Shown here: piece by piece, positions 23,881-59,408 of the stretch
Layout: each line of letters starts with the position of its first letter
Numbering within the stretch: position 1 is the first letter of the stretch
Assembly: GCA_016938235.1 (NCBI GenBank)
Contig: JAFGVA010000012.1
Coordinates: 1 to 64,000, forward strand
Direction of reading: 5' to 3'
Source: Bacteroidales bacterium
Lineage (GTDB): Bacteria; Bacteroidota; Bacteroidia; Bacteroidales; UBA10428
DNA length: 64,000 nucleotides
The notes under the pieces: model-generated
Seen by the model: only the letters and a program-made list of their open reading frames with translations
The model's database searches: none
What the model was told of the DNA's origin: nothing
Program-made: the position numbers and the translations under genes

Positions 23881-25794
23881 TTAGTACCCCGGGTTTTGAG
23901 TAAATTCATCTTTATTATGTACTGCGTCTAATTGATCCTGCGGAATAAACCTAAGTTTATGGAAATCCTGAATATTAGCAGCAGCATCGAGGTTATAAGC
24001 TTTTACTCTTTCCAGAAGTTTATCTGTTCTTTTAAGATCGAAAAAGCGCAGCATTTCAGTTGCAAGTTCCCTTGCCCGCTCATCGAGAATAAAATCGATA
24101 TCAATATCATTGCCGTTGTTAACTCCATATGCAGCCAAAACTGCCGCTCCGTCACCATCAAATGAACGTGCATTAGCAAGTGTTTCAAGGTAGCTGAATG
24201 ATTCTGTGGAGTTTCCTAGTTTCATTGTAGCTTCGGCAGCAATCAGGTACATTTCCGATATACGGATAACAAAGAAATCTCTTTGTGAATATTCCTGTGG
24301 AATTTCAAGCTTTGTTAAATCCTGGTATCTTTTTGTAATCGGGAAGTAAAACTGACGATCAATATTATCGTTTACAGAACCATCCTCATTATACATATCG
24401 TCAATATCAAGAATCAGGTAACCAGCTTCCGGGTCGAAATCGAACCTTCGGCCTGACATTGTTGCCCTCTCTGAATCGGGAATTGGTTTTTTAGAGAAAT
24501 ATATTGCTGTATCGCCAAGGTCGAATAATGGCAGTTTCCAGAGATCCCTGTCTACATCAACTCTTGTAGAAGGAGCATCCTGCATGAAGTAAAATGGTTT
24601 CCAAACGGGTCTTGCATCAGAATTGCACAACCATGTATCTTTAAAAGAACCTTTAAAACGCTCATCAACATCTTCATTAAACAAATCAATAAAAAACCTT
24701 GTTGGCATCCATCGCTGGAATCCACGACCATTAGGTATATCGCGGGTCATAGCTCCATCTGTTATTTCTTCGTACCTGATTTCCCATAAAAGGTGCCCCT
24801 GATTGCCCCCCTCTCTTTGAATTATACCATCTCTCTGCCAATATCTTACATCTTCCCAAGTATAATCACTGTCTTCTAAATCTTCATCCCATGGATTAAC
24901 AAGACTCGGGTTAGTAGTTATTGAATTAGCACTATAAACAACTGCCCAGACAACTTCTGAGTTGTTTTCATTATCTAAATCAAAAATTTCGTTCCAATCA
25001 TCAACTAAGGCAAAACTGTAATTATTTATAACTGAGTCAGCAAAATTTTTCGCTAATGTAAAATGCTGCTGAGCCATACCTGCATCGGCGGTAATATAGG
25101 TGTTACCCAATATTTCAAGGCCTGTTTCGAGATAACTTGCCCATGTTAAGTGCATCCTTGCCAGAAAGGCCTGAACAACTGGTTTTATAACTCTGCCATA
25201 TTGCGTTGTTGTTTCAGGAGTCAATTTTAACGCCTGATCCAGGTCAGAGAAAATCTGTGCATATAAATCCGGTATAGGTGAATGATTTGCATCATAAACA
25301 GCGTCATTTATATAATCGGTTGTTAAAGGCACATCACCCCAGGTTTCGGTAAGCTGCCAGATATAATGAGCCCTGAGGAAATACAATTCTCCTTTTCTGT
25401 TTAGTTTTAATGTTTCATCCAGGTATTCAAGATCATCAATATTTTCCAGGGCCAGGTTAATCGAATTAATCGCTTTATAGAGTTCGTACCACATAGCTCC
25501 CAGACGGTCATCTTCTTCACCTACCCAGCTGGAGTAGGTACAAAATCCTCTTGTTCTGATATCAGCGGCCCAGGTATAAATATCTGTTCCCGCTTCTGTA
25601 AGATCCCATCCATTTTCACGACCATACCATAACCTCAGCGGAACATAATTAGCTACAACAAGCGATTCCATCATATCTTCGGATGAAACGATGGTACCGG
25701 AATTTGCTCCTCCCATAAATTCTTCTTCCAGAAAATCTTCGCAAGACTGCAGTGCAAAGAATATCAGGAACACTATTGATATATATTTTTTCAT
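23881..25794 (-). CDS. susD: SusD/RagB-family outer-membrane lipoprotein
   Basis: 637 residues from ATG 25794 (MKKYISIVFLIFFALQSC lipobox, then EDFLEE). The SusD fold is clear: TPR-like N-terminus with WYELYKAINSINLALENIDD and GELYFLRAHYIWQLTETWGD, then QPVVQAFLARMHLTWAS-type helices, and the C-terminal RDFFVIRISEMYLIAAEATM and ILDERARELATEMLRFFDLK. It is longer than many SusD proteins (about 550). It forms the lid of the SusC channel and binds oligosaccharides. It follows susC by 25 bases. Substrate inferred from the pectinase neighbours. Confidence 0.95.
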   Translation of the reverse strand: MKKYISIVFLIFFALQSCEDFLEEEFMGGANSGTIVSSEDMMESLVVANYVPLRLWYGRENGWDLTEAGTDIYTWAADIRTRGFCTYSSWVGEEDDRLGAMWYELYKAINSINLALENIDDLEYLDETLKLNRKGELYFLRAHYIWQLTETWGDVPLTTDYINDAVYDANHSPIPDLYAQIFSDLDQALKLTPETTTQYGRVIKPVVQAFLARMHLTWASYLETGLEILGNTYITADAGMAQQHFTLAKNFADSVINNYSFALVDDWNEIFDLDNENNSEVVWAVVYSANSITTNPSLVNPWDEDLEDSDYTWEDVRYWQRDGIIQREGGNQGHLLWEIRYEEITDGAMTRDIPNGRGFQRWMPTRFFIDLFNEDVDERFKGSFKDTWLCNSDARPVWKPFYFMQDAPSTRVDVDRDLWKLPLFDLGDTAIYFSKKPIPDSERATMSGRRFDFDPEAGYLILDIDDMYNEDGSVNDNIDRQFYFPITKRYQDLTKLEIPQEYSQRDFFVIRISEMYLIAAEATMKLGNSTESFSYLETLANARSFDGDGAAVLAAYGVNNGNDIDIDFILDERARELATEMLRFFDLKRTDKLLERVKAYNLDAAANIQDFHKLRFIPQDQLDAVHNKDEFTQNPGY

Positions 25795-25819
25795 TTCAAT
25801 TTTCATTTAAAGAATTCAA

Positions 25820-28800
25820 CTAAAATTCAAGATTTAAACCGAAAACGTATGTACGCGCCAAAGGCCAGTTAATACTACCTCCTCGTTCAGGATCCAGTCC
25901 TTCGTCAAGAAGGCTGTAAAGAATTAAAGGATTGTTTGATGTAAAGTATACTCTAAACGTGGAAATACGAGCTTTTTTAATCCATAACAGAGGTATATCG
26001 TACCCAAGTGTGATATTTTTGAGTTTAACAAACGAACCATCCTGATAACTAAGGGTTTCTTCATAATCGGCCTCTGCTGTATTTGCATCAAGCCTGGGAT
26101 AATCATTCGAACCATTATGAGGAGTCCAGTAATTAACTTTCTTCATATTATTATACATTCTGGGATCGAAATCATATGAAGCAGCATCAATCATATTCCC
26201 CATCCGGGCATATAGGTTAATTGTTAAATCGAAACCTTTGTATTTGAAAGTATTGGACCAGCTGCCAAAGAAAGTTGGATCAGTTGTACCCAGCACTACC
26301 CGGTCTGCAGTAGTTATTGTATCTTTTCCATCCGTTTTGTCGGTATCTTCAACTTTAATATCTCCGGGAACATAAGAACCATATGTTGCTGCTTCATCCC
26401 GTTCATCTAATTGCCAGATTCCTAACTTTTTATAGTCGTAGATTACATTAATCGGCTCACCAACAAACCAGTTGTTTACCTCATCTTCGGTTATGCCTGA
26501 TGCCAGACTAAGGATTTTATTGTGCTGTGTGCTAAAGGCTACATTCATGTTCCATTTAAAACCTCCGCGATTAACATTTACAGTTTTTAACATAACTTCA
26601 AAACCTTTGGTCTCTACAGAGGCTAAATTTGCATCGATATCGAAAGAACCTGTGTTTAAAGGCAATTGGACCGGCAAGATAACATCATCAGAAATCGAGG
26701 TATAAGCATCAATATTACCGGCTATCCTGTTACTAAATAATCCAAAATCAACTCCAAAATTGTATTGTGCTGTTCTTTCCCATGTTAACTTTTCGCTGGC
26801 AAGGTATTCTGGTCTGTATCCGGCAATAGCAATATCGTCGCTTTCCCCAAATTCATAATACATTGGAAATAGGTTTACCACACCTTTAGTATCATAAGGA
26901 TTGACAACCGGATTGCCGGAAACACCATAACCAATCCTTGCTTTTAAGTCAGAAATAACACCTGTGTTTGCAATAAAATCAAGATTATTTAATCTTAAAG
27001 CACCAGAAGCCGATGGGAAAAAACTCCATTTGTTTCCAGCAGTTAATACTGAAGCTCCATCATATCTTCCTGAAGTATTAAGAATTAAAAGGTTATGTAT
27101 ATTCAGACTTGCCCGGGCAAAAACAGAAAGTAAATGTTGTTCAATTAATCCACTGCTTACCCTTAATGTTGATGGTTCGGCCGATCCCATATTCCAGTAT
27201 TGATTACTGGAAAATGGCTGGCGTTCTCCATACATTGTCATGATTTCCTGCCTTTTAATTTGCATTTCCTGCCCCAGAGTTAAATTCAGCGTGTTTTCTG
27301 AAAACTCTTTGGTGAAATTTAAAAGGTTAGTCCAGTTTATTAAATAGTCATTATTTATATCTATTCCAGAAGTATTCGGTTCCTGATCTACAGCTTTATT
27401 GGGATATGAATAACCGTTTCTTTCATTTTCAAAATCTACACCAACATTAGATTTAAAAAATAAATCGGGAAGAATATTAAGCTGAACATATGCCGAAGAA
27501 AAAGTCCGGGTTGCCATTTCTTGTTCGAAATCGTATGTATAAGCTAAGGGGTGCCTGCGTGGGTTGGCCGGATCTGGTTGATAAATGTAATCACCCAATG
27601 AATCGTATGCCGGAACAATTGGAGACATTAATACCGCATCAACAAATCTTACACCCCGGCCATTTCGTTCACGGTATGTAATAATTGTTGAAGCTCCCAG
27701 GCTAACATAGTCATTTATTTTTCCATCAACATTTAATTTAAAAGTATACCTTTTAAAATCGTCTGCCAGGGTAACTCCTTTCTCATTAAAGTAGGTCATC
27801 GAAGAACCATAGGTCAGTTTTTCGCCTCCACCAAGAATCCCCAGGCTGTATTCCTGCCGGTAACCATTTCTGGTACAGATATCCTGCCAGTTATTATAGG
27901 TACCATCCCGCACCCCTTCAAGTTCAGCAACACTAAAAACAACCGCAGAATCAGGCAAATCATTCCAATGAGCATAATTATCAGTTGTGTCTCTGTTTGC
28001 ATCGAATTTTGCGTTTATATAGCTATCTCTGTCAAAGGTTGGAACTTTCTGATAGGGTTCGGTAAAACCGTAATATGCATTAAAGTAAACTTTTGTTTTA
28101 TTTACTGTTCCCTTCTTGGTTGTAATTAAGATAACACCATTTGCACCGCGTGAACCATAAATAGCTGTTGATGATGCATCCTTTAAGATCTCTACTGATT
28201 CTATGTCGCTGGGATTAATTGGTATATTGCTGCCGTAAGGAATACCATCTACTACAATCAGGGGGTCATTAGCTTCATCTCTTCCGAGAGATCTGGAACC
28301 TCTGATTTTAATATCTACTCCTGAACCTGAGCGCCCATCACTCACTCCAACATCAACACCGGCTGCTTTACCCTGCAAACTCTCCAGCACATTTGAACTT
28401 TTCACCTCTGATAATTCCTCTTCACCCACAGAAACAATTGAACCTGAGATATCACTTTTTTTCATGGTGCCGTATCCAACCACAATAACCTCATCTAGTC
28501 CGACTAAATCTTCGACCATTTTAAGGTTAATAGCAGTCTGTTGTCCAATCCGAAATTCTTCTGAAAGCATCCCAATCATAGAAAAAACAAGGATGTTATC
28601 ATCTGAACTGACCTCGATGGAAAAATTACCATCCAAATCGGTTATTGTTCCTGTTGTTGTTCCTTTAATAGAAATGTTTACTCCAGGCAAGGGCTTTTCA
28701 TCGATTCCCGAAATTACAGTTCCTGTCACAGTTCTTTGTGATAAGGCTCCGGGAACCGAAAAAACAAAAATTGACAACAACAATAGAAGGTATTGTTTCA

Positions 28801-28825
28801 ATTTGTATTTCTTGTTTCTTTTCAT
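25820..28825 (-). CDS. susC: SusC/RagA-family TonB-linked transporter
   Basis: 1001 residues, signal peptide ending ALSQ. CarboxypepD_reg-like domain (30-110, GTVISGIDEKPLPGVNISIK), the SusC signature VVGYGTMKKSDISGS (about 120-135), plug (to about 240, with SSTAIYGSRGANGVILITTK) and a long barrel ending ARTYVFGLNLEF with a terminal Phe. It imports oligosaccharides across the outer membrane with SusD. Expression is probably controlled by HTCS1 (29213-33358) through the repeats at 29061-29102. The neighbourhood predicts a pectin substrate. Confidence 0.97.
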   Translation of the reverse strand: MKRNKKYKLKQYLLLLLSIFVFSVPGALSQRTVTGTVISGIDEKPLPGVNISIKGTTTGTITDLDGNFSIEVSSDDNILVFSMIGMLSEEFRIGQQTAINLKMVEDLVGLDEVIVVGYGTMKKSDISGSIVSVGEEELSEVKSSNVLESLQGKAAGVDVGVSDGRSGSGVDIKIRGSRSLGRDEANDPLIVVDGIPYGSNIPINPSDIESVEILKDASSTAIYGSRGANGVILITTKKGTVNKTKVYFNAYYGFTEPYQKVPTFDRDSYINAKFDANRDTTDNYAHWNDLPDSAVVFSVAELEGVRDGTYNNWQDICTRNGYRQEYSLGILGGGEKLTYGSSMTYFNEKGVTLADDFKRYTFKLNVDGKINDYVSLGASTIITYRERNGRGVRFVDAVLMSPIVPAYDSLGDYIYQPDPANPRRHPLAYTYDFEQEMATRTFSSAYVQLNILPDLFFKSNVGVDFENERNGYSYPNKAVDQEPNTSGIDINNDYLINWTNLLNFTKEFSENTLNLTLGQEMQIKRQEIMTMYGERQPFSSNQYWNMGSAEPSTLRVSSGLIEQHLLSVFARASLNIHNLLILNTSGRYDGASVLTAGNKWSFFPSASGALRLNNLDFIANTGVISDLKARIGYGVSGNPVVNPYDTKGVVNLFPMYYEFGESDDIAIAGYRPEYLASEKLTWERTAQYNFGVDFGLFSNRIAGNIDAYTSISDDVILPVQLPLNTGSFDIDANLASVETKGFEVMLKTVNVNRGGFKWNMNVAFSTQHNKILSLASGITEDEVNNWFVGEPINVIYDYKKLGIWQLDERDEAATYGSYVPGDIKVEDTDKTDGKDTITTADRVVLGTTDPTFFGSWSNTFKYKGFDLTINLYARMGNMIDAASYDFDPRMYNNMKKVNYWTPHNGSNDYPRLDANTAEADYEETLSYQDGSFVKLKNITLGYDIPLLWIKKARISTFRVYFTSNNPLILYSLLDEGLDPERGGSINWPLARTYVFGLNLEF

Positions 28826-28973: not shown

Positions 28974-29060
28974 CTGCTAAAATTCAAATTTGATCTCTAA
29001 CTGTTTTTCAGCACACTAATGTATCATCTATAATATTAAGGCTTGTGAATTAATATCCGT

Positions 29061-29102
29061 AAAACAGGGTAACAATGTACCAAAACAGGGTGACAGTATG
29101 CC
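29061..29102 (-). promoter_or_regulatory. Tandem 21-bp direct repeat, likely HTCS1 operator
   Basis: Two directly adjacent 21-base units (29061-29081 and 29082-29102) share the core AAAACAGGGT and differ at four positions, all transitions. A weak third copy ending in GTACC may follow to 29124. A 21-base step equals two helical turns and is the half-site spacing known for AraC-type regulators. It lies between HTCS1 (AraC-type output domain) and the susC transcript start region. Confidence 0.65.
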
Positions 29103-29212
29103 AATAAACCAGCATAAACGTACCACAGTCGGGTTTTTAGATTCTGATTATCTGATAGTTATAAATATTGACGTGAAATACGCAAATAAAATTGTCGGAA
29201 GAACAACAATGA

Positions 29213-32200
29213 CTATGAATTCGAAGTATTTTTATATTGCGACGGAAGCATTTTAAACTCCGATTTAAAGATTTTTGAAAAATAACGGGGATCTGAAAAA
29301 CCTACCTGGTAGGCTATTTCGCTTACCGTTAACTGACTCTCTCTTAATAACTGAGCAGCTCTTTTTAACCTGACTAAACGTATAAACTCAACCGGAGTTT
29401 TTCCGGTAATTGATGACATTTTTTTATAAAGATGCACGCGGCTAAATCCAAGTTCTGAACTCAGTTTCTCTACTGAAAACTCAGAATCTGTAATGTTTTC
29501 CTCAACAAGTTTCAGTGCTTTGTTCATTAATTTCTCATCAAGCGAAGTAATTCCGATTGACCCGGGTTCAATTTTAAAATTCTTTTGGTATTGTTTTTTC
29601 ATTAATTCCCTGCGCGCAACAAAGTTTCGGATACGGGCTTCAAGAATTTCGAAACTAAAAGGCTTGGTTATGTATGCATCGGCACCCGACTGGAATCCTT
29701 TAACCTCAAGCTCATGAGTTAGTGAGGCTGTAAGAATTAAAAAGGGTATGTGAGATGTTTTCTCATTTTGCTTGACTTTTGCACACAATTCAATACCATC
29801 TACTTCAGGCATCATTAAATCACTGACAATTAAGTCGGGCATATAACCTTTAATAACGGGCCAGGCTTCAGCACCATTCGAAGCTTCAAGAATTTTATAA
29901 TTGACTTTCAGGTTATCTCTGAGATAGAAACGAAAATCTTCGTTATCCTCAACCAGCAGAATTGTTATAAAGTTTGTATCGATTTCGGATTCCACTTCAT
30001 TGGCAGAGACAACTCTTTCATCTGATTTTTCTTCTGAAAGTCTTTCCTCAATCCTGCTCTTATCAACCGGTAAATAAACCGAAAAGGTACTTCCTTTATC
30101 AACTTTGCTTTCAAGTTTAATTACTCCATTATGCAGATTTACAAATTCCTGGGTTAGCGATAAACCTATTCCACTGCCGCGACTTAATGTCCCTGTTGGT
30201 TGCTCATTCTGAAAGAATCTTTCAAATATTTTATTGTGTTTCTCGTCAGAGATTCCAATACCAGTATCAACAACTTCAACTAGTAAAGATTCGTCAGTAC
30301 TAATGGGATTATCAACATTATCAAAAGGAATCAGGTTAATACGAAGCAGTATTTTCCCATTTTTTGGAGTGTATTTAAACGCATTCGACAGTAAATTAAA
30401 GACAATCTTTTCAAGTTTATCGTGATCAAACCTCATAAAGAACTCCTCTGCAAAGGATTCAAAATTATATTCAATCTCATTTGTCCGTGCCAGATCTTTA
30501 AAGGATTTAAATACCTCTTTCAGAAAAATTACAACGTTACCGTATTCCGGATTAAGTGCAAGTCTTTGCTCTTCCATCTTTCTGAAATCGAGAAGTTGAT
30601 TAATTAAACCCAGTAGTCTTTTTGCATTAGAATAAATAACATCAAGCTCACCTCCAAGTTCCATGTCGGAGTATTTCTTTTTCAGCCGTTCAAGGGGTGT
30701 TAATATTAAGGTTAAAGGAGTTCTGAATTCGTGACTAACATTCGTGAAAAACCGGGTTTTTATGGCATTTAATTCTTGTTGACGGAGTGCTTCCTGCTTT
30801 GCCTGTTCGTTCTGAAATTTCAATCGTTCACCCATTAGAGAAACTTGTCTGAAGAAAAACAAGAGGCTCACTATTAAAATAAAATAAAGTGAAATAGCTA
30901 CTTTGCTTCTCCAGAAAGGCGGCTTTATCAGAAGATTTAATATGGCTTCGTTGTAATTGTCGGTGTTGCCTTCTACAAAAGCTCTAACTTTAAAAACGTA
31001 TTTCCCCGGATCAAGGTTAGTATAGGTGATTTTTCTATCTGTATAACTCGTAGATATCCATTCATCATTAAATCCTTCCAATATATACTGGTATTTAATT
31101 CTCTCAGGATTCAGGAATGCCAGGGCACTGAATTCAATAGAAAAAACATTGTCAGAATACTGTAATTCAATATTTTCGGTGTAGAGAATAGACTTTTTCA
31201 GAATGGATGAGTTCTTCTTTTTAGAATCAACTTTTACCGACTCGCCGTGCAAATAAAAATTTACAATTTTTACGGGAGGAATTATGCTGATATCGGCCAG
31301 TTTTTCAGGTCTTAACAGATAAAAACCATTGGACCCTCCGATAACAATCTCTCCGGAACTGGTTTTGTAGGCAGAACGTTCATTAAAACTCTGGTTTTTG
31401 ATTCCGTTATCCTTATCGTAGTTTATGAACGAATATTCCTCTACAGCAAAATTCTTTCCAATCCGGATATCTAACCTGGAAACTCCCTCGTTTGTAACAA
31501 CCCATATATTTCCCAGATCATCATCTACGATAGATAATATGGTGTTGTCAAGTAAGCCGTTTTCTGTTCTGAATTTATAAAATGTTCCACTTTCGGGTAA
31601 AAAGAGGTTTAATCCATCACGCGTTCCTACCCAAACCAGCCCCCTTGAATCACACAGCATTGTAGTAATCAGATTATTACTTAGGGTATTCGGGTCATTT
31701 TCAGAATGACTGTAATGAACCACTTCGCCCATTGTCCATTTCATTACGTATACCCCTTCGCTGGTACCGATCCATAAATCACCGTAGTTATCTTCCTGAA
31801 TAGCTATAATATAATCAGATGGAATTGAAAAATTATCACCTGTATTATACCTGATAAAAGCATTATGTTTTCTGTCGAAAAGTGCTAACCCACCGCCCAA
31901 TGTACCAATCCACAGGTTTTCCCGGGAATCTTCAAAAATACTCCAAACCCGGTTGTCGGGTATACTTCTCGCATTATTAGGTTCATTCAGAAATCGATCA
32001 AACTTTACACCATCAAATTTATTCAAACCACCATGGTATGTTCCCACCCAAACATTCTTTCTCGAATCGGTATACAATGAAACTATTATATCATTGCTCA
32101 GACTGCCGGGAGACGGTGAATTTTGAAAAGTTACAAAGGTACCCGCTGAGCGGTCGAAATAATTTATACCGCCGCCATTTGTTCCAATTACCAGGTTTCC

Positions 32201-33358
32201 CTCAGCATCTTCGGTAAAACAATGTACATCGTTGTACTGTAAACTCTTCGGGTCAAATAAATCATTTACATAGGTTTCAAAAACAAACATTTGTTCATGA
32301 TAAAAATTCACTCCCTGCTTGTAGGTACCTACCCAGATAATATCGTTATTATCCCGATAAACTGAAGTTAAACTGTTCTGATTTAAAGACTTTTCATCAT
32401 TTCGCTTATACATAAGATAATGCACCGTCCTTAATTCCTTGTCGATAATATTAATTCCTCCATGATCGGTTGCAATCCAGATTTTTCCTTGCGAATCTTC
32501 AACAATACTTGATATTAAATCTGAATTTGTAGAGAACCCTTTCTTTCCACTTTTTATATATTCGAACCTATCTTGTGCAGCATGATACCAAACCAGATCT
32601 AATGGTATTGTTGCATTGTATATCCAGATATCGTTCTGGCTATCACAGAAAATGCTCAGGAAATATTGTTCGTCCTTTGCGGTAAAGACTTCTTTCCTGT
32701 AAACAACTTTCATGCTTTTGGGCTCAAGCTTCTCAATAAGTCCATCTGAATGAGCTATCCAATAATACCCTTCGTTATCCTGAATAATTGTTGATATTAC
32801 AGTATTTCTAAACGAGAAAGAGTCTTCCGGATTTGAAGCATATGTAATATATGTACCTGTAACTGCATTTTGTTTTACCAGTTCATTATTTGTTGTGATA
32901 ATCCAGAAATTCCCTTCCTTGTCTTTTCTTAAGTCAGATACTTCATGAAGAGAAAGCTGCCGATTATCCAGTGTCAAAATCCTATTACGCTGAAAAGATT
33001 CGGTAACAGGATCGAAAATACAAAATCCGACCGATGTGTTTACCCAAAGATTGCCCTCTAAATCTTCAATTACTGAATTCACAGAATTATCTAAAAGAGA
33101 GGCTGTGTCAAAAGGTTCTTTGTAGTAGCAGCTAAAATTGTATCCATCGTATCTGTTTAATCCCGATAAAGTTGAAATCCAGATAAAACCTCTACTATCT
33201 TGATAAAACGAACGTATTTGATTGTTTGATAATCCATTGTCGGCTGTAAGACTACCAAACCGATAATTATCATTCTGAACCTGTGGAAATGCCAAATAAC
33301 AAATACAGGAAGAAAGTATTGTCAATAGCAGTAAATGCAATTTTAATCTCAAAATCAT
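29213..33358 (-). CDS. Hybrid two-component system regulator (HTCS1)
   Basis: 1381 residues. Signal segment (about 1-25); two seven-bladed Reg_prop propellers (about 30-690) with repeated blades such as DNGLSNNQIRSFYQDSRGFI and NRVWSIFEDSRENLWIGTLG; Y_Y_Y domain (about 735-800, DPGKYVFKVRAF); one TM helix (VAISLYFILIVSLLFFF); HisKA with NVSHEFRTPLTLIL (phospho-His, about 870); HATPase_c (NLLSNAFKYTP, GTGIGISDEK, GSGIGLSL); receiver (ILLVEDNEDFRF, phospho-Asp in IVSDLMMPEVDG); AraC-type HTH (about 1285-1381). It senses an oligosaccharide in the periplasm and drives the neighbouring PUL. Divergent from the uxu operon across a 221-base gap. Confidence 0.97.
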   Translation of the reverse strand: MILRLKLHLLLLTILSSCICYLAFPQVQNDNYRFGSLTADNGLSNNQIRSFYQDSRGFIWISTLSGLNRYDGYNFSCYYKEPFDTASLLDNSVNSVIEDLEGNLWVNTSVGFCIFDPVTESFQRNRILTLDNRQLSLHEVSDLRKDKEGNFWIITTNNELVKQNAVTGTYITYASNPEDSFSFRNTVISTIIQDNEGYYWIAHSDGLIEKLEPKSMKVVYRKEVFTAKDEQYFLSIFCDSQNDIWIYNATIPLDLVWYHAAQDRFEYIKSGKKGFSTNSDLISSIVEDSQGKIWIATDHGGINIIDKELRTVHYLMYKRNDEKSLNQNSLTSVYRDNNDIIWVGTYKQGVNFYHEQMFVFETYVNDLFDPKSLQYNDVHCFTEDAEGNLVIGTNGGGINYFDRSAGTFVTFQNSPSPGSLSNDIIVSLYTDSRKNVWVGTYHGGLNKFDGVKFDRFLNEPNNARSIPDNRVWSIFEDSRENLWIGTLGGGLALFDRKHNAFIRYNTGDNFSIPSDYIIAIQEDNYGDLWIGTSEGVYVMKWTMGEVVHYSHSENDPNTLSNNLITTMLCDSRGLVWVGTRDGLNLFLPESGTFYKFRTENGLLDNTILSIVDDDLGNIWVVTNEGVSRLDIRIGKNFAVEEYSFINYDKDNGIKNQSFNERSAYKTSSGEIVIGGSNGFYLLRPEKLADISIIPPVKIVNFYLHGESVKVDSKKKNSSILKKSILYTENIELQYSDNVFSIEFSALAFLNPERIKYQYILEGFNDEWISTSYTDRKITYTNLDPGKYVFKVRAFVEGNTDNYNEAILNLLIKPPFWRSKVAISLYFILIVSLLFFFRQVSLMGERLKFQNEQAKQEALRQQELNAIKTRFFTNVSHEFRTPLTLILTPLERLKKKYSDMELGGELDVIYSNAKRLLGLINQLLDFRKMEEQRLALNPEYGNVVIFLKEVFKSFKDLARTNEIEYNFESFAEEFFMRFDHDKLEKIVFNLLSNAFKYTPKNGKILLRINLIPFDNVDNPISTDESLLVEVVDTGIGISDEKHNKIFERFFQNEQPTGTLSRGSGIGLSLTQEFVNLHNGVIKLESKVDKGSTFSVYLPVDKSRIEERLSEEKSDERVVSANEVESEIDTNFITILLVEDNEDFRFYLRDNLKVNYKILEASNGAEAWPVIKGYMPDLIVSDLMMPEVDGIELCAKVKQNEKTSHIPFLILTASLTHELEVKGFQSGADAYITKPFSFEILEARIRNFVARRELMKKQYQKNFKIEPGSIGITSLDEKLMNKALKLVEENITDSEFSVEKLSSELGFSRVHLYKKMSSITGKTPVEFIRLVRLKRAAQLLRESQLTVSEIAYQVGFSDPRYFSKIFKSEFKMLPSQYKNTSNS

Positions 33359-53919: not shown

Positions 53920-55092
53920 TTAATCTACAATTTGCCACTGTGCATTTACATGTGTGGTACCATTGTATTGAGCAAGGGCACTACCATTACTGGTTCTGCC
54001 GTATCCATCGAGTCTCATGTTGGTGCCTCGGTTTTGAATATAATAATAACCAGAACCGGCATCGATGAATTGCCATTGAGCATTTACATGTGTAGTGCTG
54101 TTTGAATATTGGGCACAAGCGCTGCCATTACTGGTTCTGCCATAACCATCAAGTTTCATGTTGGTGCCCTGGTTTACCAGGTAGTAGTAGCCTGAACCGG
54201 CAGAAACTATATTCCAATGTGCATTGCTGGATGATGAATTGTATTGTCCGGCATCAGAGCCATTGCTTGTTCTGCCCATACCATCGATAGATAAACCTGT
54301 TGCCCGGTTTACGAAACGTTTTGTTCCGGAGATGGGGCTGCTTGGTGGAGGAGTTGTGGTACCGCCACTACTGCTTCCACTTTCCCAAACTGTAACGTTA
54401 CAATATCCATTACTGGTACCCCAAGCCTCTGTTAATAATATGGCAGAAGGTGAAATATCGCTTCCAAGACCATATCCTGAAGCTGCCCATGCGTTTGCGT
54501 GGTTAGCGAAAGTAATGGTGTGGTTGGCACCGGTCGAATTCTGTGATGTTCTGGTGCTGTATATCTGCCTGAAGCTTTGAGTACCATCGATAGAAGGTGC
54601 ATTTGACCTCCACGATGTATATACATTGTATGTACCGCCGTCGCTTGTAATGGTGCGAAGAATGCCTCCGTCAGCAGGCCTGGTTGCGCCCCATTTTTCG
54701 TTTACATAATACTCCATTAGAGGATTTCTGGTCCATCCATAATAGGCCATGGAACCACCGCCGCCATTAAGACTAAAAGAGCCGCAATTGTAGCCAACTA
54801 CCCTGGTTCTTGATCCGGAACTCCAGCCTTTGCCGCATGTAAAGTTACCATTCATGTTCCAGGATACACTGTAATTACCTCCTGAGCCATTGGTATAATT
54901 TACTGAACCAGAAAGGCCATCACTTTTCCAAAGAGACCAGAAGTAGCCGTCGTGTGTGCCAGACTCGTAAGTTTTTAATTGAAGTTCAGGAACACCTTCA
55001 AGTAGATCCTCTTTTTCGCAACTAGACAGAAATGATGCAAATAAAAATACCAGCATCATAATTAAGGTTGAGTGAGTAAAACGATTGTTCAT
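53920..55092 (-). CDS. GH11 endo-1,4-beta-xylanase with beta-trefoil lectin module
   Basis: 390 residues, SPII signal (LVFLFASFLSSC) followed by acidic EKEDL, a possible surface-export signal. GH11 jelly roll (about 40-240): GYFWSLWKSDGLSGSVNYTN, GGNYSVSWNMNGNFTCGKGW, nucleophile Glu in NPLMEYYV, YTSWRSNAPSIDGTQSFRQI, NHTITFANHANAWAASGYGL, acid/base Glu in LLTEAWGTSNGYCNVTVW. A Ser/Thr/Pro linker (GGTTTPPPSSPISG) follows, then three ricin-B-like repeats (about 258-390), each with NxGTNMKLDGYGRTSNGS-type sequence. The last two are very alike. Probably a surface xylanase. Next to HTCS2; operator-like repeats lie upstream at 55197-55228. Confidence 0.93.
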   Translation of the reverse strand: MNNRFTHSTLIMMLVFLFASFLSSCEKEDLLEGVPELQLKTYESGTHDGYFWSLWKSDGLSGSVNYTNGSGGNYSVSWNMNGNFTCGKGWSSGSRTRVVGYNCGSFSLNGGGGSMAYYGWTRNPLMEYYVNEKWGATRPADGGILRTITSDGGTYNVYTSWRSNAPSIDGTQSFRQIYSTRTSQNSTGANHTITFANHANAWAASGYGLGSDISPSAILLTEAWGTSNGYCNVTVWESGSSSGGTTTPPPSSPISGTKRFVNRATGLSIDGMGRTSNGSDAGQYNSSSSNAHWNIVSAGSGYYYLVNQGTNMKLDGYGRTSNGSACAQYSNSTTHVNAQWQFIDAGSGYYYIQNRGTNMRLDGYGRTSNGSALAQYNGTTHVNAQWQIVD

Positions 55093-55196
55093 AATGTAGA
55101 AATTTTTGTTTGTAATAGTGTTTTTAAAAACTAGTTAGGTTAATCGTATTTTAGATTGATGGCGAAATGTAAGATGAGAAAACAAGGATTTCGTGG

Positions 55197-55228
55197 AAAA
55201 TTATCCCGAAAAACTGAAAAATTGTCCC
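55197..55228 (-). promoter_or_regulatory. Direct repeat with 21-bp step, likely HTCS2 operator
   Basis: The core AAAATTATCCC (55197-55207) recurs as AAAATTGTCCC (55218-55228), 21 bases apart. It lies about 105-136 bases upstream of the GH11 start and just below the 3' end of HTCS2. Same step as the repeats upstream of susC. The rest of the 224-base gap (55093-55316) shows no gene. Confidence 0.55.
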
Positions 55229-55316: not shown

Positions 55317-58300
55317 TTATTTCTCCAATGATTTTTGAAAACTTTTCGGAGAAATATTATACTGTTCTTTAAATACCTTACTAAAATAACCCGGATCTGC
55401 AAATCCGCAATCGTATGCAATTTCGCTAATTGTATGGCTGTTTCCTTTTAAGAGCTCTTTTGCTTTTTTTAATCGGTAATTTTTAATCAGATCATTAATG
55501 GGCTGGTTCGATAATGATTTGAATTTTCTGTAAAACACACTTCGGCTCATACCAATATCATCAATAATAACATTCATATTAAATTCCTGATTCTGGTAGT
55601 TTTGTTCAATTATTGAAATAATTTTTTCAATAAAATCTTTGTCCAGTTCATTTACACCTAAACTGCCATCAACTATTCCATCGGAACCTATAAAATGTGT
55701 TTTTAGTTGTTCGCGTTGTTTTAATAAATTTCGAATTCTGGATCTCAGGAGATCTTCATCAAACGGCTTATAAATGTATTCATCAGCACCAATATCAAAA
55801 CCTGCTATGCGATTTTCGGTAGTGGCTTTGGCTGTAAGAAGTATTACAGGTATATGCGAAAACCGGATATCTGTTTTTATTTTTTTGCATAACTCAAAAC
55901 CATCCATTTCCGGCATCATTACATCACTAATGATAATATCCGGTAAGATTTCAAGAATTTTGTCCATTCCTTTCAAAGGATTGGTTTCGGTAGTTACATT
56001 GTAGTTATCTTTTAACAGCGTTTCGAGGTATGAACAGATATCGTTGTTGTCATCAATAATTAAGATGGAATATTCATGAGCAATGGCCTGAGGGATGAAC
56101 TGAGTTTTTGCTTCAGTTTCTGCGAATTTATTTTCAACAATCAATTCTTTTTGAAGGGCTGAACTCTGATATTTTTCAATGGGTATCAAAATTTTGAATT
56201 TCGAACCTTTCCCGGGCTTGCTTTTAACAGATATGCTACCTCCATGCAGCTCGATAAGTTTTTTTGTTAAATGAAGTCCTATTCCTGTTCCAACGGTACG
56301 ATTTGATAATTCATTGGAAGTAAAAAACAGGTCAAAAATCTTATCAATATTACCTTTTGATATTCCATAGCCGGTATCGTTTATTATAATTTTCAATAAA
56401 TCGTTATTTCCCGGCTGGGTATTTTCAATAGCTATTTTAAGTTTTATTGTACCTCCCTCAGGAGTGTATTTAATGGCATTTGAGGTAATATTCGAGATTA
56501 TTTTCTGAATTTTATCTTCGTCAACATCGATGATTAACTTATGAACAGGGGAATTGAAAACCAGATTAATACGTCTTTGCTCAGCCAAATCGTTGAAATT
56601 AAAAAAGGTATTATGTACGATTTCAATAACATCAGTTTTTTTAAGATTAAGTTCAACTTTATCGCTTTCGATTCTGCGAAAATCAAGTATTTGATCCACT
56701 AATGCGATTAAACGGGTAACATTATTTTTAATTAAATGCAGTTCTTTCCTGGCATAATCGGCTTGTAATAATCTGTTTACAGGCCCCGATATGAGTGTTA
56801 AGGGAGTTCGAAGCTCATGCGATATATTTGTAAAGAACTGGAATTTCAGGTTGTTTAATTCCTCACTTTTTTGATTTTCAATGTGTTCAAGCCATAATTT
56901 GTTTTTATCTGTGGTCGAAATAATCGTGTATTTTCTAAAAAAGTATAAGGCAATTAATCCTAATAATATATATATAGCTTTGGCAAGCGTTGTTTGCCAC
57001 CAGGCAGGTAAAATATTAATTGTTAATTCTTTTCCTGTTTCATTCCATATGCCATCGTTATTTGTTGCTCTGACCCTGAATATATATTTACCCGGATCGA
57101 GATTTGTATAAGTTGCTATACGTTTTGAACCAATGTAATTCCAGTCTTTATCAAATCCTTCTAACTTATATGCATACTCATTTTTCTCAGGGGAAATAAA
57201 GTTTAATGCGGCATATTCAATACTAAATACAGCATGTTTTCTTGTGAGGTTTACTTTATTGGCCATATTAATATGGCGTTGAAGGGGTGAATCTTTGGCT
57301 CCGGTGGTAATTGATTTATTAGATATTAAAAAGTCAGTAAATACAATTTCCGGTGCAAAAGGGTTTTCTTTAATCTTATCCGGATAAAATGCATTAAACC
57401 CATTAGAGCCCCCTATGTATATAATCCCATCTTTCCCTTTAAAAATCGAACGATCGGTAAATTCGTTTCCCTGAAGCCCATCTGTTATATCATAATTTAT
57501 AAATCGAAGGCTATCGGGGATATTTATTGCATCAATGAATTTAGATAAGCCATTATTTGTAGTTAACCATAAATTACCTTCATCGTCTTCACAAATTGCT
57601 TTAATAGAGTTGTTTGGCAATCCGTTTTTTACCTGGTAACATGAAAATGAACTGTCATCTCTGTGATAAAGATTTAAACCGTTGTTTGTACCCAACCAGA
57701 TATTCTGCTTACTGTCTTCGAAAATATCTGTAATTCCGTTATAACTAATACTGCCTGTGTTTTGTGGATTGTTTTTGAAAACCCTGAATTTTCCTGTTTT
57801 TCTGTCAAAGAGCGTGAGGGCTTCAGTAGTTGCAATCCAGAGTTCGTCATTAATGCTTTCATGAACTTCGCAAAGCCAATCTGTCGGAAGGCTGTTTCTG
57901 CCTGCTTTGTATTTATACCTTGTGAATTTACGGGTTTTATAATCGAAAGAATTTAACCCACCCAGCATGGACGCAATCCATATTAAGCCATTTTTATCTT
58001 CGGTTATTCCATAAATATTATTTCCTCCAATGCTGGCAGAATCGTTCTCATTAAACTGGTATCGTGTAAATTTTCCGGTTTTTTCGTTAAACAGGTTCAA
58101 TCCTCCTCCCCAGGTGCCAATCCACATTGATCCCCTGCTATCCCTGAAAATTGCCCACACGGCATTTGATCCAATTGAATGATCATCGTTGAAATCGTGC
58201 GTATAATGCAGGTATGTATCTGTTTTTATATCCCAGATATTTAATCCTTCCTCGGTTCCAATCCATAATTTATTTTCTTCTTCATACAAAACATTTACAT

Positions 58301-59408
58301 GATTATTATTCAAACTGTTAGGGGTGTTTGGATTTTGTTTGACATGTATAAATTTCTGCGATAAACTGTTGTAGTAATTAAGCCCTCCATCGTATACACC
58401 TAACCAGATTGTATTTTGGTTATCCCTGTAAATTGTATGAATGGAGTTATTGGATAAACTCGAATTATCGTTCGGATTATGCATGAAATAATGAAAGTTG
58501 CAGCGGGTTCTGTCAAAATTTTTTAAATCAATAATATTCAACCCGCCATTTTCTGTGCCTATCCACAATTGTTTGTCATTATCTTCCAAAAGTGCATAAA
58601 CTGCCCCCTGGCTAACACTTTTCTTATTAAAGGGGTCGGGTTTATATTGGTAAAATGCCGGGCTTAATGGGTTGCCCTCGGGATATTCCATTATAAACAA
58701 ACCCTGTTTACTTGTTCCAAGCCATATTCTTCCATCACTATCCTGAAATATTTTTTGTATGTTGTTTTCACCCGAATTTTCTTCGTCTCCGGGCAATTTT
58801 ATGGTATGGAATGAATAATCGGAGGTATCAAAAAGCAGGAGTCCGTTAAGCGTGGCTAACCAACAATTATTTTTATTATCTATAAAAATATCCATGACAT
58901 ACGAGTCACTATAAACCTGTTTTGCCGAAAGATCTTCTGGATTCATTACAAATAACCCTACAGGTGTTCCAACCAATTGTACGCCCTTTTCATATTCATA
59001 AACACAATCAACATAGGTTTGTATGGCAGTAGTAGGTATGAATTCATCCGTATCCCTGTTATAACTATTTAAACCTACCTGGGTACCTACCCAAAGTTTA
59101 CCTTTGGAATCTTCGTAAATTGTATTAATGTTGTTATGATTCAGACTGTTTTTTTGGGATGAACTATGCCTGTATATTTTAAAAGTATATCCATCGTATT
59201 TATTTAAACCATCGCTGGTTCCGAACCACAAAAAACCGTATTTATCCTGATAGATGCATTTCACCCAACTCCGGGAGAGTCCGTCCTGCACCGAAAGATG
59301 TTTAAACTCGATGGATTGAATTTGAGAAAATACATTTTGACCCGGAAATGACAACCGGATAATCAGAATAACCAAAAAAAACAATTTTATGCCTTTGTAT
59401 TTCAACAT
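55317..59408 (-). CDS. Hybrid two-component system regulator (HTCS2)
   Basis: 1363 residues, same architecture as HTCS1: signal (LIIRLSFPGQNVFSQ); Reg_prop propellers (about 30-690; LSVQDGLSRSWVKCIYQDKY, LRDSRGSMWIGTWGGGLNLF-type blades); Y_Y_Y (about 725-795, DPGKYIFRVRATNNDG); TM (AIYILLGLIALYFFRKY); HisKA with NISHELRTPLTLIS; HATPase (NITSNAIKYTP, GTGIGLHLTK); receiver (ILIIDDNNDICSYL, phospho-Asp in IISDVMMPEMDG); AraC HTH (GMSRSVFYRKFKSLSNQPIN, ISEIAYDCGFADPGYFSKVF). Located directly upstream of GH11 in the same direction, so a xylan-derived signal is plausible. Confidence 0.97.
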   Translation of the reverse strand: MLKYKGIKLFFLVILIIRLSFPGQNVFSQIQSIEFKHLSVQDGLSRSWVKCIYQDKYGFLWFGTSDGLNKYDGYTFKIYRHSSSQKNSLNHNNINTIYEDSKGKLWVGTQVGLNSYNRDTDEFIPTTAIQTYVDCVYEYEKGVQLVGTPVGLFVMNPEDLSAKQVYSDSYVMDIFIDNKNNCWLATLNGLLLFDTSDYSFHTIKLPGDEENSGENNIQKIFQDSDGRIWLGTSKQGLFIMEYPEGNPLSPAFYQYKPDPFNKKSVSQGAVYALLEDNDKQLWIGTENGGLNIIDLKNFDRTRCNFHYFMHNPNDNSSLSNNSIHTIYRDNQNTIWLGVYDGGLNYYNSLSQKFIHVKQNPNTPNSLNNNHVNVLYEEENKLWIGTEEGLNIWDIKTDTYLHYTHDFNDDHSIGSNAVWAIFRDSRGSMWIGTWGGGLNLFNEKTGKFTRYQFNENDSASIGGNNIYGITEDKNGLIWIASMLGGLNSFDYKTRKFTRYKYKAGRNSLPTDWLCEVHESINDELWIATTEALTLFDRKTGKFRVFKNNPQNTGSISYNGITDIFEDSKQNIWLGTNNGLNLYHRDDSSFSCYQVKNGLPNNSIKAICEDDEGNLWLTTNNGLSKFIDAINIPDSLRFINYDITDGLQGNEFTDRSIFKGKDGIIYIGGSNGFNAFYPDKIKENPFAPEIVFTDFLISNKSITTGAKDSPLQRHINMANKVNLTRKHAVFSIEYAALNFISPEKNEYAYKLEGFDKDWNYIGSKRIATYTNLDPGKYIFRVRATNNDGIWNETGKELTINILPAWWQTTLAKAIYILLGLIALYFFRKYTIISTTDKNKLWLEHIENQKSEELNNLKFQFFTNISHELRTPLTLISGPVNRLLQADYARKELHLIKNNVTRLIALVDQILDFRRIESDKVELNLKKTDVIEIVHNTFFNFNDLAEQRRINLVFNSPVHKLIIDVDEDKIQKIISNITSNAIKYTPEGGTIKLKIAIENTQPGNNDLLKIIINDTGYGISKGNIDKIFDLFFTSNELSNRTVGTGIGLHLTKKLIELHGGSISVKSKPGKGSKFKILIPIEKYQSSALQKELIVENKFAETEAKTQFIPQAIAHEYSILIIDDNNDICSYLETLLKDNYNVTTETNPLKGMDKILEILPDIIISDVMMPEMDGFELCKKIKTDIRFSHIPVILLTAKATTENRIAGFDIGADEYIYKPFDEDLLRSRIRNLLKQREQLKTHFIGSDGIVDGSLGVNELDKDFIEKIISIIEQNYQNQEFNMNVIIDDIGMSRSVFYRKFKSLSNQPINDLIKNYRLKKAKELLKGNSHTISEIAYDCGFADPGYFSKVFKEQYNISPKSFQKSLEK

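Follow-up and report, generated by a model that had tools for sequence, protein, structure and literature searches.

HTCSs control much of the use of plant and host glycans in Bacteroidota and, to our knowledge, tests exist for only a few of the sites that they bind. Activators of the AraC/XylS family recognise two direct half-sites about two helical turns apart, the proximal one lying next to the promoter. The predicted sites of 16 HTCSs from Bacteroides thetaiotaomicron are direct repeats in which the mean distance between the two conserved sites is 21 bp, and which have been read as a dimer sitting on one DNA face; those of HTCS_Man consist of two 16-bp sites and a 5-bp spacer, i.e. 21 bp (Ravcheev et al. 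2013, PMC3878776). In gel shifts, receiver-HTH fragments of BT4124 and BT4663 bind the susCD promoters bt4114 and bt4662, and the SHIP motif has been linked to a DNA binding that is suppressed until phosphorylation (mBio 2024, PMC11253607).

Here we describe a direct repeat at 29061-29102 of the window (the whole 64-kb stretch of DNA that was analysed), located in front of a susC/susD operon that has an HTCS gene associated with it. As with AraC/XylS-family activators, the predicted half-sites are about two helical turns apart with the proximal one by the promoter; unlike in those systems, the -7 box is the TAnnTTTG of Bacteroidota and not the sigma-70 consensus, and the regulator is a membrane-bound hybrid kinase. 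The repeat resembles the predicted operators of B. thetaiotaomicron in its direct orientation, its period of about 21 bp, its place in the promoter of a polysaccharide utilisation locus and its association with the HTCS of that locus, and differs from them in that the repetition extends over almost the entire 21-bp period, with the spacer, and in that further, degenerate copies may lie on either side; the source bacterium is apparently outside the genome set of that study (PMC3878776). The HTCS carries a SHIP motif as BT4124 and BT4663 do, and binding was demonstrated for those two whereas here the site is predicted from sequence (PMC11253607). The repeat is very probably the operator of the adjacent HTCS, whose phosphorylated dimer would activate susC/susD and the pectin genes; this reading is well supported and concerns a kind of site already described. 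Lying beside a pectin-type locus, the putative operator is a testable target.

The repeat and its genomic context

The two abutting 21-bp units (Table 1) are identical at 17 of 21 positions, share ACCCTGTTTT exactly and differ at four positions, all C/T. Read on the minus strand, which is the shared direction of HTCS, susC and susD, they form two similar sites in direct orientation with a centre-to-centre distance of exactly 21 bp, and Tandem Repeats Finder (TRF) returns the same array (29061-29104, period 21, score 60). The 387-bp region between HTCS and susC holds the repeat 110 bp from the HTCS stop codon, the susC ATG being 235 bp further on. Dinucleotide shuffles of this region reach 17/21 at period 21 once in 5000, and the same level of identity at any period from 18 to 24 in 11 of 5000; furthermore, the window has no other period-21 pair reaching at least 80%, and none appeared in 100 whole-window shuffles. 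The description given in the first-pass annotation, of two abutting 21-base units that differ by four transitions, is confirmed by sequence, TRF and shuffles. Its argument that differences consisting of transitions only betray a conserved functional core carries little weight, four out of four being common under ordinary transition bias. A weak third copy had also been mentioned: such copies are present 22 bp upstream and 22 bp downstream, both are poor, and neither convinces alone. Simple promoter and terminator scans returned nothing convincing.

Table 1. Features of the locus, and of the second HTCS repeat, with window coordinates
Feature	Position	Strand	Sequence	Remarks
HTCS	29213..33358	minus		Reg_prop, Y_Y_Y, HisKA, HATPase, receiver with SHIP, AraC-type HTH_18 (Pfam)
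Weak upstream copy	29103..29124	minus	GGTACGTTTATGCTGGTTTATT	22 bp before unit 1; includes GGTACGTTTATGCTG (29124-29110); sequence reading
Unit 1	29102-29082	minus	GGCATACTGTCACCCTGTTTT	sequence, TRF
Unit 2	29081-29061	minus	GGTACATTGTTACCCTGTTTT	sequence, half-site model
Candidate degenerate proximal half-site	29047..29062	minus	TTACGGATATTAATTC	22 bp after unit 2
Weak downstream copy	29059-29045		CGGATATTAATTCAC	at 22 bp
Candidate -7 element	29016..29023	minus	TACATTAG	one mismatch to TAnnTTTG; 58 bp after unit 2 start; presumed susC-operon promoter
Small ORF, 34 aa	28869..28973	minus	MDVTKKKIKNLSYFIFIGVVVVIVAVLFLIDTMI	one hydrophobic helix; between repeat and susC
susC, presumed target	25820..28825	minus		SusC/RagA-type TonB-dependent transporter; TIGR04056, 760 bits (cut-off 368)
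susD-like lipoprotein	23881..25806	minus		PF07980, PF14322; 13 bp after susC
Second HTCS	55317-59408	minus
Second HTCS repeat	55194-55228		GGGACAATTTTTCA / GGGATAATTTTCCA	TACATTTC 36 bp after second unit start

In the 5.2-Mb genome, the pattern formed by the paired shared cores has a single exact match, which is what a regulator acting on its own locus would lead one to expect. Three matches with one mismatch, each within a long ORF, were rejected as further copies, being coding sequence and looking like chance; among 23 related genomes, many core-pattern matches are probably fortuitous as well, and the CCCTG core pair was not found in genome G006 at one mismatch. The units are partly palindromic (GGTA..TACC), so that their orientation is not settled from sequence alone. 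For the same reason, a first half-site model built from six seeds is unusable as an orientation test: half-sites score on the opposite strand too, and the query was not significant in it (136/1000 shuffles).

The regulator unites a propeller sensor, HisKA, HATPase, a receiver and an AraC HTH in one protein, with the SHIP motif of the receiver at residue 1202; the AraC output domain that had been ascribed to it corresponds to HTH_18 (Pfam, E 2e-21). The genes downstream of susC/susD encode a large protein that combines DUF4957/DUF5123-like domains with a sorting domain, as well as a GH28, a DUF4861 protein and a GH88, and we infer a polysaccharide utilisation locus of the pectin type. The opposite flank of the HTCS carries, on the plus strand, an SDR gene, UxuA, GH67 and a glucuronoyl-esterase-like gene.

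Repeats and promoter geometry beside other HTCS genes

We collected the non-coding regions that adjoin HTCS genes, both in the genome to which the window belongs and in relatives, and scored them at all lags from 15 to 40. Lag 21 is the peak, with 16 of 181 non-redundant HTCS-adjacent regions scoring at least 17, a count to be read as about ten independent cases since some of these regions are mutually related and one (L016) is a 7-bp microsatellite; the next-best lags give 5, and control regions 1 of 147 at lag 21. The proposal that a 21-bp step suits the sites of AraC-type HTCSs agrees both with the published average and with this concentration of 21-bp repeats beside HTCS genes. In Pedobacter and a Sphingobacteriaceae MAG (L057, L058, L061 and L103), no other part of the intergenic region is as conserved as the 21-bp repeat, and more distant relatives keep the form of the repeat and not its letters. 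The second HTCS of the window also has its own 21-bp direct repeat with different letters, preceding a GH11 xylanase gene with a ricin-type lectin domain. By their DNA-binding domain, the closest HTCSs are L064/L018 (82% identity) and L003 (80%); none has a susC adjoining it, and the exact site is consequently not traceable in orthologues.

A box resembling TAnnTTTG (up to one mismatch allowed, background 0.0137 per base) is present in ten loci, where it starts 35-39 bp, mostly 36 bp, beyond the beginning of the second unit. When aligned on this -7 box, the half-sites of different families match up and share a core near AACATT. A model that combines the two half-sites, distal and proximal, with the -7 box, and whose training left out the query, recovers many more loci; under two-fold cross-validation, scores of at least 15 are reached by 21 of 304 held-out strands versus 6 of 912 shuffled ones. 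A narrow literature search yielded no paper stating a constant distance to the -7 box, and this distance is possibly new, as is the third half-site at the locus described here. If confirmed, the fixed spacing would help to find HTCS promoters from sequence alone.

Layout of the predicted operator

At 29061-29102, no fitting -7 box stands at 35-39 bp from the beginning of unit 2, and this spacing is obtained only if the degenerate copy at 29047-29062 is taken as the proximal half-site. The best arrangement has unit 2 as distal half-site, TTACGGATATTAATTC as proximal half-site and TACATTAG as -7 box; it scores 9.6, the next best in the region 2.1, and 34 of 1000 shuffles score as high. About ten other places across the whole window outscore it, so that the model by itself would miss the site. 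When anchored on TACATTAG, unit 2 falls on the distal half-site columns of the relatives with a score of 4.9, and it carries the ACATT core of the family. Unit 1 obtains a low score (about -1) with the half-site model of the family, and the proximal candidate, at -1.3, is weak by itself and owes its support chiefly to the fixed distance that separates it from the -7-like box. A layout with unit 2 as distal half-site, 29047-29062 as proximal one, a weak -7 box and unit 1 as an extra half-site is thus moderately supported. A third, degenerate half-site on the susC side is probably part of the operator, and the two strong units may for that reason not make up a complete dimer site; the promoter geometry of the relatives qualifies in this respect the earlier proposal that the repeat is the HTCS site, which is otherwise supported.

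The rival layout contests this arrangement and leaves the reading as an HTCS operator untouched: units 1 and 2 alone would constitute the full dimer operator, about one repeat further upstream, with class I-like activation at TACATTAG or at another promoter. It accounts for the mutual likeness of units 1 and 2, which is far above that of either to the putative proximal site, and for the fact that relatives usually show both half-sites recognisably, but it would make the locus an exception to their nearly constant 36 bp between second unit and -7 box, and we consider it a serious though somewhat improbable solution.

Returning to the three-half-site layout, we hold tentatively, with a little less than even confidence, a more general view in which HTCS promoters across Bacteroidota have one fixed layout in common, with two half-sites 21 bp apart and a -7 box whose start lies about 36 bp beyond that of the second half-site, the present locus being a variant in which a third, upstream half-site makes up for the weakness of both the proximal half-site and the -7 box. 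In the mechanism that we infer, as regards binding, activation, ligand and exact promoter alike, the sugar ligand would bind the periplasmic propeller domain and lead to phosphorylation of the HTCS dimer, whose two AraC-type DNA-binding domains would then occupy one face of the DNA, two turns apart. The bound HTCS would recruit RNA polymerase to the promoter just downstream on the minus strand and switch on susC/susD together with the pectin-degrading genes behind them. The degenerate proximal half-site would overlap the -33 region, with unit 2 as the distal half-site and TACATTAG as the -7 box, and unit 1, as an extra upstream half-site, may add affinity or cooperative binding.

Other explanations of the repeat

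The repeat could be bound by a regulator other than the HTCS, such as a global carbohydrate regulator or another AraC-type protein, and the half-site letters, unlike those of most relatives, as well as the partial palindromy that leaves orientation unfixed, would accommodate this. A global regulator would however have many sites whereas the pair is unique in the genome, and 21-bp direct repeats track HTCS genes, which makes such a protein an unlikely owner of the site. Even less probable is a neutral tandem duplication devoid of function: with just two good copies and four transitions the array would fit ordinary drift, yet period 21, so frequent beside HTCS genes, is rare in control intergenic regions, and unit 2 has the core of the family. 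An RNA element of the susC leader, conceivable because the intergenic region is leader-sized, is scarcely credible given that the repeat lies upstream of the most likely transcription start and that scans of Rfam and for terminators gave no family above its cut-off and no terminator-like hairpin.

Additional observations

In size and place, the 34-aa ORF between the repeat and susC resembles ORFs that directly follow HTCSs of the same subfamily (L004, L007, L009, L010, L023 and L008) and that have about 31-47 aa and a single hydrophobic helix. Its homology to them is not supported: the alignment search that found it included the 34-aa ORF by construction, and a leave-one-out profile does not recover it. 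NCBIfam gave no match above cut-off for the three small ORFs scanned. The ORFs of the relatives look like real genes, as third-position differences predominate between them (7, 1 and 13 by codon position for L010/L023; 6, 4 and 20 for L007/L009).

On the same contig as L003, a 22-bp direct repeat (L200, 5639-5787) is followed by TAAGTTTG near the usual place, upstream of an operon, and is compatible with the same promoter rule, with different letters. A strong 22-bp direct repeat in L205 (3115-3296; GTGAAGCCCTGAGT / CTGAAGCCCTGAGT), its second copy followed some 30 bp later by TACATTCG, lies upstream of a 396-aa ORF and more than 10 kb from the HTCS. The relative closest to the HTCS of the window's pectin-type locus, at 62% identity, is encoded by two overlapping ORFs (L202, 2149-4236 and 4221-6353; also L064), split between a sensor part and a kinase-output part, which may reflect a frameshift or a genuinely divided regulator. 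Finally, the GH11/lectin gene of the window contains a tandem repeat with a 141-bp period (2.1 copies, 53932-54225), which probably corresponds to repeated lectin subdomains.
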